The notes under the pieces were generated by a model that did no database searches, was not told where the DNA came from, and worked only from the letters and a program-made list of their open reading frames with translations. Position numbers and translations under genes: made by a program. From Patescibacteria group bacterium (GTDB taxonomy: Bacteria; Patescibacteriota; Patescibacteriia; Buchananbacterales; SURF-54), in the NCBI GenBank assembly GCA_018818885.1, contig JAHIRB010000032.1, positions 1-40,332 on the forward strand: a stretch of 40,332 nt of DNA, in the 5' to 3' direction. How positions within the stretch are numbered: the stretch's first letter is position 1; every line of letters begins with the position of its first letter. Positions 1 through 32,987 of the stretch are shown here, piece after piece.

Positions 1-1
1 A

Positions 2-147
2 GATATATTCAATCAAAAAATGACTGAGTGGCTAGTTTGGTATAATACAAAACGATTCCACTGGGGCCTTAATCTAGAGACCCCTGTGGATTATTTATTA
101 AAAAATAACTATGTGTCCAATATGTGCTGGACTAATACACTTGCTTG
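2..147 (+). CDS. Partial integrase/transposase C-terminus (rve-type), cut by window edge
   Basis: Frame 2 reads DIFNQKMTEWLVWYNTKRFHWGLNLETPVDYLLKNNYVSNMCWTNTLA*, matching the WYNTKRPHxxLxxxTPxxYL C-terminal motif of integrase-core transposases. Confidence 0.7.
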
Positions 148-462: not shown

Positions 463-490
463 TTGACTAAGCACCGCAATAATGTATAAT
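463..490 (+). promoter_or_regulatory. Sigma70-like promoter (TTGACT-16-TATAAT)
   Basis: TTGACT 463-468, TATAAT 485-490, 16-nt spacer; no credible ORF follows. Confidence 0.6.
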
Positions 491-496
491 AACTAT

Positions 497-752
497 CCAC
501 GATGCGCGTGCAGGGCGCTTTCTCCGGGGCATGCCGCGAGCATGTCTTTGCGCCCTGCCCCGCATTTTTGCTCTTTTTTGGAGCGGTCATGCAGTTAACT
601 CCTGTTCGGTGTTCAGTGAAGGCCAAAAAAACCCTTCAACCAACTGCTAACCGCTCCTCTAATCTTGTGGCCAAGAACGCTTCTTACCAGGAAATCTCCA
701 CTATCACTGGAGTCCTGAGTCCTGTCGAGAGCTTCTTGGCCGCTTTTTTTAT
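497..752 (+). ncRNA. Candidate structured small RNA (unassigned)
   Basis: Three consecutive hairpin domains: 503-518/550-564; 580-586/651-657 enclosing 591-596/642-647 and 617-622/633-638; 667-677/733-743 enclosing CTCCA/TGGAG, followed by T7. Confidence 0.5.
667..752 (+). terminator. Terminator-like long hairpin followed by T7
   Basis: GTGGCCAAGAA ... TTCTTGGCCGC then TTTTTTT. Confidence 0.5.
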
Positions 753-770
753 TCTCAATTTATCTATTTG

Positions 771-872
771 TCATCCTGAACGTAAGTGAAGGATCACACA
801 TCTTCCAATAAGCATGGGGTAAGATTTCTTAAGCTCACAAAACATCAAATAACACCGGTCGAAATGACAAAT
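771..872 (-). repeat. Dispersed palindromic element, copy A
   Basis: GTCATCCTGAACG...CGGTCGAAATGAC; reverse complement aligns with 21737-21867. Confidence 0.5.
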
Positions 873-2746: not shown

Positions 2747-3499
2747 TTATTGCTTAGGTAATTCAGTTTCTTTCCACAAGTATTCAAAAATATTCTTAAA
2801 CGCTCGAGCAATAACATCATTTTTGATTAATACTCCTGATGGATGCTTTTCATCAAACACAAATAACGAAATTTTTGAATCATAAATATACAACTCCATC
2901 TTTAAATCCTTAAAAAGTTTAATAAATTTCATTTCACGAAGAATATCTTTAGATCTTTTTAAATCTTCTCTTCCAACTTCTGTTTCTGCAGACAAATTTT
3001 TTACTTTTACTCCATGCTTAACTCTGGAATCAAAATAACTCTTATTAAAAAAATCACCTAAAATATCATATCCAGCTTTATAATCAGTGATTGCATAAAT
3101 CATTTGCCCTTTATTATTTTTCCAACTATCAGCATAAAGATTTTTTACTCCTTCAAATCCTTCAAAATATTTAATCTCTGAATACAAAGTATCTGGTTGA
3201 CTGATTTTTTGATTTTCCGCCCATGACATTAAATCATTTGCATCTTTTACTGTTTCTTCTTCAATTCGTTTTACCCATTGCTTGAAATCATCTAAAGAAA
3301 TCGCTTGATATATAGTAGTTTCTTCTACTGTGAATTTGGTGACTACTCCCTTAGATAGTAGTTTATCCAAAATCGGATAGAGTGTTGTTCTATTGATAAG
3401 GGTGTGTTTTGATAGTTTTCCAACAGAAGTCTTACCTAATTTGTATAAACCGGTTAATACGGTTTTTTCTTTTTCGCTTAAATTAGCTACATTTTCCAT
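2747..3499 (-). CDS. TrmB-family transcriptional regulator
   Basis: N-terminal wHTH (SEKEKTVLTGLYKLGKTSVGKLSKHTLINRTTLYPILDKLLSKGVV) plus TrmB-like effector region. Confidence 0.8.
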   Translation of the reverse strand: MENVANLSEKEKTVLTGLYKLGKTSVGKLSKHTLINRTTLYPILDKLLSKGVVTKFTVEETTIYQAISLDDFKQWVKRIEEETVKDANDLMSWAENQKISQPDTLYSEIKYFEGFEGVKNLYADSWKNNKGQMIYAITDYKAGYDILGDFFNKSYFDSRVKHGVKVKNLSAETEVGREDLKRSKDILREMKFIKLFKDLKMELYIYDSKISLFVFDEKHPSGVLIKNDVIARAFKNIFEYLWKETELPKQ

Positions 3500-5097: not shown

Positions 5098-5191
5098 GCG
5101 ATTTTTTGGATCAATGAAAGGATGGGCGGCTTATTATTTTATTCAAAAAACTCCCCTATCTTTGGGAGCTTTTTTAATATTGCAGAAAGAC

Positions 5192-5358
5192 AAGAAGCTA
5201 GCGAGATCCGTACAAGTCTAATAAATTAGATCTACACGGATCGAGCCGACAAAGCAAGCTTTGCGAACCCACTAGCCCCGTAGATACTAGATGTTTAATA
5301 ACCACGGGGCTAGACAGTATCGACAATACGCTGCTTACAATTATCGCGCTAGCTTCTT
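5192..5358. ncRNA. Candidate multi-branched structured element (unassigned)
   Basis: AAGAAGCTAGCG 5192-5203 pairs perfectly with CGCTAGCTTCTT 5347-5358 and encloses GATCCGT/ACGGATC (5205-5211/5236-5242), CAAAG/CTTTG, CTAGCCCCGT/ACGGGGCTAG (5272-5281/5304-5313) and GTAT/ATAC. Confidence 0.45.
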
Positions 5359-5364
5359 ACCTTG

Positions 5365-6234
5365 CTACCGCTTTCTATGAAAAATTTCTTCTACAAAATT
5401 ATATATTTTTTTGTAAATCTCTCCCCTTCTCTCGTCTTCCATCATTGAATGAGAAAAGCTATCATTAAGCCAACAAATCTTTTTATCTTTAGAACCCAAG
5501 CAATCGTGAATCCTTAAGGCAGACTTAGGGTGGACTATTGGATCAATATCTGCTTGAATTATAAGAGTTGGTGATTTAATATCTGGCATCATCTTATTTG
5601 TTCTTTTGACAAGTCTAAAAAATTCTCTGTTTGACTTGTTAGGTATCTTAGAATAAGTTATCTCATCAATCAAGCGTGGCGCCTTTGAATTAAAGAATGC
5701 GCGTGGTTTTCTCCAATATCTTTGTAAGTATGCTTGCGAAAATGCTCGCGCCTTTCTATAATGATGAGCACGTATCCAAACAGGTGTTCCAATTGATATT
5801 ACTCCACTTATTCTTTCTGGATAATCATGTGCAAGTTTAAAAGCGATGTTGCCACCAAATGAATTTCCTAATACAAAAACTTTCTTTACTTTTTCAGAAA
5901 GTTCATCTAAAGCTTTTTCGCATGATTCAATCCAGTCTTTAGAAGTTGTTTTTTCTAAATCTTCTGGTTTTGTACCATGCCCAGCTATCAAAGGAGCATA
6001 AACACTAACACCTTTTCCCGCTAAATATTCAGCTAATTCCATAAATTGTGCTGGTGTAGAAGTAAATCCATGCAATAATAAAACCCCAACTTCTGTTGAG
6101 GGGTATATAAAAAACGGTTCAGCACCTGCCATATAGCCGTTTTTGCCGTTTTTAACTATTTTTTCAAGACGATTTTGGTATATTTTTGGGATACCAGAAT
6201 TCCTTACACGTTGTATTTGCTTAATCCAATTCAT
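5365..6234 (-). CDS. Alpha/beta-hydrolase, carboxylesterase-like
   Basis: GVLLLHGFTSTP, GNSFGG nucleophile elbow, downstream D and H. Confidence 0.85.
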   Translation of the reverse strand: MNWIKQIQRVRNSGIPKIYQNRLEKIVKNGKNGYMAGAEPFFIYPSTEVGVLLLHGFTSTPAQFMELAEYLAGKGVSVYAPLIAGHGTKPEDLEKTTSKDWIESCEKALDELSEKVKKVFVLGNSFGGNIAFKLAHDYPERISGVISIGTPVWIRAHHYRKARAFSQAYLQRYWRKPRAFFNSKAPRLIDEITYSKIPNKSNREFFRLVKRTNKMMPDIKSPTLIIQADIDPIVHPKSALRIHDCLGSKDKKICWLNDSFSHSMMEDERRGEIYKKIYNFVEEIFHRKR

Positions 6235-32358: not shown

Positions 32359-32387
32359 TTGACAAATTATTCAAAATATGATAAGAT
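32359..32387 (+). promoter_or_regulatory. Sigma70-like promoter of the large structured RNA
   Basis: TTGACA 32359-32364, 17-nt spacer, TAAGAT 32382-32387. Confidence 0.7.
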
Positions 32388-32393
32388 TTTATG

Positions 32394-32960
32394 TTTAGTC
32401 AAAAAATGATTGGACATTATTTCCTCCCCCTCGGGATCAGGGGAAAGAACCTAGGGGAATAGCAGGCACAGTGTCAAAGCACAGTGTTAAATTTGATTCA
32501 TCCGATAAATTCATTATCATTCGGAAATCAAAGACCTGCTATTCCCCGGGCTAATTTTCATAACCAAATGCTCAAAAGTCTGCAGACAACCTCCCTAAGC
32601 TAGTTGTGCTAGCAAAGACTGGAGGGTCTGTCCAAACTTTTTGGACTCGGTGCCTGTGGAATCTTGGATAGTAGGACAAATTAATTTGTACCTTTAATTA
32701 TCCCCTATATGGGGATCCTCCTTTCCCTACTATCCAGAATTCTGCAGGCACGACAAGCATGGGGTGTAATCACTTAGGATAATTCTGGCCTCGGCTCGAA
32801 TCATCCAAGAGACTACACCTTTGTCTGCAGACTTGTGAGCATCAAAAAACAACCATTTTCTATTTTATAACGCTATCAGAAAGAATCAAGAAACAGTTAC
32901 GATTAAGACAAAAATCAAAAATTGACTGAAAACTTATAAAATAGAAAATGGTTGTTTTTT
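32394..32960 (+). ncRNA. Large ornate structured RNA candidate (unassigned)
   Basis: Helices: 32454-32466/32535-32547 (13 bp perfect); 32568-32589/32821-32842 (21/22); 32651-32676/32726-32751 (26 positions, G.U tolerant); plus many local hairpins; no ORF. Confidence 0.7.
32844..32960. repeat. 27-bp perfect inverted repeat with 63-nt loop
   Basis: AAAAAACAACCATTTTCTATTTTATAA (32844-32870) / TTATAAAATAGAAAATGGTTGTTTTTT (32934-32960). Confidence 0.95.
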
Positions 32961-32987
32961 AGATTTAGCTAATGTTGATAACTTTTA

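Follow-up and report, generated by a model that had tools for sequence, protein, structure and literature searches.

Comparison with described RNAs and terminators

Small RNAs encoded between bacterial genes have their own promoter, stable hairpins, a rho-independent terminator and no coding potential. At the level of sequence, bp 497–750 of the window (the whole 40,332 bp stretch analyzed, contig JAHIRB010000032.1 of the Patescibacteria assembly GCA_018818885.1) has this make-up of a stand-alone bacterial small RNA gene, with its own putative promoter and terminator and no apparent coding sequence; unlike such RNAs, it is an orphan that has no sequence or structure match in Rfam. Rho-independent terminators consist of a G+C-rich stem and a U-tract, a description that fits the third of its three hairpins and the seven T's that follow it, and a U-tract is also found after the first hairpin. 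Their loops are 3–8 nt long, however, whereas here the outer stems enclose ∼40–55 nt with nested stems (∼55 nt in hairpin 3), and three hairpins lie in a row with a promoter-like site in front. 6S RNA is a single long hairpin with a central bubble, whereas 497–750 has three separate hairpins and no Rfam match. With regard to tmRNA and tRNA, ARAGORN finds only tRNA-Arg and tRNA-Ala near 6.5–7 kb, and with regard to retron ncRNAs, there is no reverse transcriptase among the adjoining open reading frames examined (transposase end, AMP-binding ligase and TrmB-like regulator). A literature search on small RNAs of this lineage found nothing. We regard bp 497–750, with about even confidence, as a lineage-specific stand-alone small noncoding RNA gene of this Patescibacteria genome; it is an ordinary, unconfirmed small RNA candidate whose function is unproven. 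Were it transcribed, it would add an orphan small RNA to a bacterial lineage in which few regulatory RNAs are known.

Layout of the element

The features of the element and of the repeat that flanks it are as follows.

363–454, + strand: flanking repeat, a REP-like palindrome plus 14 bp tandem repeats (TGTTACATGATACATG...), ending 8 bp before the −35 box
463–490, + strand: promoter-like site, TTGACT-16-TATAAT, 11 of 12 matches
497–750, + strand: transcript of ∼254 nt predicted from sequence, starting 7 nt past the −10 box and ending at the T7 tract
501–567, + strand: hairpin 1, outer stem GATGCG/CGCATT, inner stem GCAGGGCGC/GCGCCCTGC with a nested hairpin; MFE −36.9, z −3.3
565–579, + strand: interrupted U-tract TTTTTGCTCTTTTTT after hairpin 1, a possible early terminator as read from the sequence
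580–658, + strand: hairpin 2, GGAGCGGT.../...ACCGCTCC, with two inner hairpins, one of which has the loop CCAAAAAAAC; MFE −29.2, z −5.0
666–743, + strand: hairpin 3, GTGGCCAAGAA/TTCTTGGCCGC with an inner nested stem, the outer arm of a compound terminator; MFE −36.0, z −5.6
744–750, + strand: T7 tract

The original prediction was of a TTGACT-16-TATAAT promoter, three consecutive hairpin domains, a T7 and a transcript of ∼250 nt, and each of these is found in the sequence. The promoter-like site is of the sigma-70 type and ranks best of the seven such matches in bp 1–1500, and the unit 497–750 is also recovered by a promoter-to-terminator scan. A point absent from that prediction is that hairpin 1 appears to be terminator-like as well, because its own U-tract follows it. 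The U-tracts after hairpins 1 and 3 are present on the + strand only, which is the direction of the promoter; hairpin 2 has none.

If this layout is read as a gene, RNA polymerase would initiate near bp 497 from the 463–490 promoter, some transcripts would stop in the interrupted U-tract past hairpin 1 to give an RNA of ∼75–83 nt, and the remaining ones should reach the compound terminator of hairpin 3 and T7 to give the ∼254 nt form. This stable untranslated RNA might act on targets in trans, with base-pairing of exposed loops, such as the A-rich loop of hairpin 2, as the most likely mode; this last step is hardly more than a guess.

Folding stability and similar structures in the genome

The predicted fold of bp 491–753 has a free energy of −103.8 kcal/mol, compared with a mean of −72.7 for dinucleotide-shuffled sequences (z −6.3; none of 200 shuffles is as good). 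The MFE and centroid structures each contain all three hairpins, and every hairpin, when folded singly, beats its own shuffles (z values in the list above). When 260 nt overlapping windows are taken across the whole 40 kb, seven outscore the best one of the 491–753 region, and more stable ones lie at 16.0, 32.6–32.8, 6.4, 5.1, 24.4 and 13.2 kb. Values of z ≤ −6 occur in 6.5% of the sampled intergenic windows of this genome (∼280 kb; with 10 shuffles per window the individual values are rough), whereas 140 kb from two relatives contain no such window. The three hairpins are real, yet not unusual for this genome.

Long compound terminator-like hairpins with loops of at least 25 nt are common as well, with 15 in the ∼289 kb of stretches sampled from the 1.35 Mb genome versus none in block-shuffled sequence. 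One of the 15 is a tRNA with its tail, one lies directly upstream of the element at 285–363, and three are on contig C41, two shortly after protein genes. With so many stable hairpins between genes and so many long compound terminators in this genome, the z-score alone is weak evidence, and folding z-scores are in general a poor guide here.

The same layout is seen at bp 166,054–166,250 of contig C34 (L082:6054–6250), where a promoter, a hairpin, T6, a second, branched hairpin and T7 stand alone between two genes that are both on the opposite strand. It differs from 497–750 in its unrelated sequence and in having two hairpins rather than three, and it has no significant homolog in the order at E ≤ 0.001 (there is one 25 nt match at E ∼0.01). 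Pairs of a promoter with a stem and U-tract number eight, against a shuffle mean of 1.2, in a count that includes tRNA and ordinary-gene cases. The other candidate of the original prediction, at 145–363, likewise consists of a promoter, a hairpin and a compound terminator. There is a slim chance, in our estimate, that 180–363, 497–750 and the C34 unit encode stand-alone RNAs, each with a promoter, compound hairpin and terminator, that evolve rapidly and together form a lineage-specific regulatory or defense class with a common architecture but no common sequence.

Search for relatives

Two results that the original prediction named as contrary to it, an Rfam match and protein homologs of ORF 502–789, did not appear in the searches made. 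Rfam 15 gives no family match at gathering or relaxed thresholds, and the best hit near 491–753 is at chance level (Atu_L1, 13.9 bits versus 60). DNA searches of its own genome, the genus, the order (up to 11 same-order genomes) and 380 genomes of the phylum return only the locus itself; the hairpin stretch occurs once in its own genome and is thus not a repeat. Searches that included phages and plasmids give nothing past chance matches of 16–38 nt, and exact 20–22-mers of each hairpin are absent from IMG/VR. A covariance model built from the single sequence, the search proposed in the original prediction, likewise recovers only the locus itself among 95 genomes of the class and 10 of the order (next best 6.5 bits, E 6.6). 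The structured-RNA interpretation is partly supported: the anatomy fits a stand-alone RNA, but conservation lends it no positive support, and since no genome searched contains a relative there is no covariation support for the structure.

As a positive control, the same DNA search finds the structured stretch at 32.4–32.85 kb of the window in nine of ten same-order genomes. The method thus detects conserved RNAs at such distances, and 497–750 shows no conservation of this kind. With one genome in the genus and two in the family, an RNA of recent origin would have escaped these searches.

Genomic surroundings

The element lies between the 3′ ends of a + strand transposase remnant and a − strand acyl-CoA ligase gene. 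Bp 1–139 belong to an integrase-core transposase insertion, of which they form the 3′ end; it is repeated on several contigs, and the copies diverge at bp 139. Five such copies (window 1–139 and those in L054, L056, L058 and L059) have the common right end ...GGACTAATACA, and several appear by eye to end within a few bases upstream of a promoter-like site, which may reflect a preference of the element for −35 regions. The REP-like palindrome and 14 bp repeats are also present on contig C41 (L060:1501–1594); in both places they have a compound terminator on one side and a promoter-like site with CTTGACT on the other, and on C41 a small membrane-protein gene comes next. A MITE-like palindromic element (CATACCGGGCAGTAGAAATTC... 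/ ...CCCGGTAGTGATCCCGTAAA) is present in two copies, at L078:1705–1950 and L079:13360–13600.

The genes downstream, both on the − strand, encode an AMP-binding (acyl-CoA) ligase (947–2707) and a TrmB-like regulator (2747–3499). Relatives of the ligase are 48–59% identical, and the sequence downstream of them is unrelated, with no similar hairpin cluster seen there by eye; a scan of GTDB contigs with the ligase gives nothing closer than a Patescibacteria MAG at 51%.

Possible explanations

Two open reading frames overlap the element, 502–789 (+) and 435–626 (−), and the original prediction took them to be by-products of the hairpins. That their frames are open is the one point for a protein-coding gene here. 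Neither has a Pfam match or a homolog in same-order genomes (nor, for 502–789, in phages), and so the protein reading was rejected for both; 502–789, moreover, has no Shine–Dalgarno-like sequence just before its ATG at 502, and its frame spans the three hairpins as well as the T7. A coding gene is thus very improbable. The main rival, more plausible if still unlikely, is a promoter followed by stacked compound transcription terminators, acting as an insulator in the space between the transposase remnant (+ strand) and the ligase gene (− strand), where mobile DNA has accumulated. Hairpins 1 and 3 would then halt + strand transcription, any RNA being a by-product. The position between two 3′ ends and the U-tract on each of these hairpins agree with this, and it retains a real share of the probability because this genome has other long compound terminators, including that at 285–363 and the three on C41. 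It is poorly matched by hairpin 2, which has no U-tract, and by the − strand, which none serves; nor would a pure insulator need the strong promoter that directly precedes hairpin 1, with no intervening gene.

The element could also be a decayed remnant, either a small gene that has lost its coding part and kept its promoter and 3′ hairpin terminator, or palindromic mobile DNA. The gap does hold a transposase end (1–139) and the palindrome with its tandem repeats (352–454), all repeated elsewhere in the genome, and a repeat of this kind on C41 precedes a promoter-like site and a small membrane-protein gene; but the hairpin stretch itself is single copy, and its hairpins are well formed rather than decaying, and we consider such an origin rather improbable. 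A small RNA gene is favored over the terminator array because of the promoter directly before hairpin 1, the lack of a U-tract on hairpin 2, and the second unit on C34. The near-consensus promoter, the stable fold, the + strand U-tracts, the lack of a protein match or Shine–Dalgarno-like sequence and the excess of promoter–terminator pairs also speak for a small RNA; the lack of a relative in the genomes searched and the similar stability of much of this genome's intergenic DNA speak against it.

Other structured sequences

At 32,359–32,860 of the window (+ strand) a promoter-like site is followed by a ∼450 nt strongly folded stretch, the one used as the positive control above, whose DNA homologs are 69–75% identical over 100–200 nt. 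Neither it nor its relatives match Rfam; it probably represents a real conserved and undescribed RNA, and is of more interest than 497–750. A long, nearly perfect inverted repeat (AAAAAACAACCATTTTCTATTTTATAA...) occupies 32,843–32,961 and has a T-run at its end; a chance Rfam match to MIR6288 is located there. A large multibranched hairpin at 5190–5364, closed by AAGAAGCTAGCG/CGCTAGCTTCTT, lies directly past the stop codon of the − strand gene 5365–6234 and resembles a compound terminator. Bp 6540–9173 of L086, on contig C41, contain a cluster of small membrane-protein-like open reading frames with promoters and compound terminators between them.
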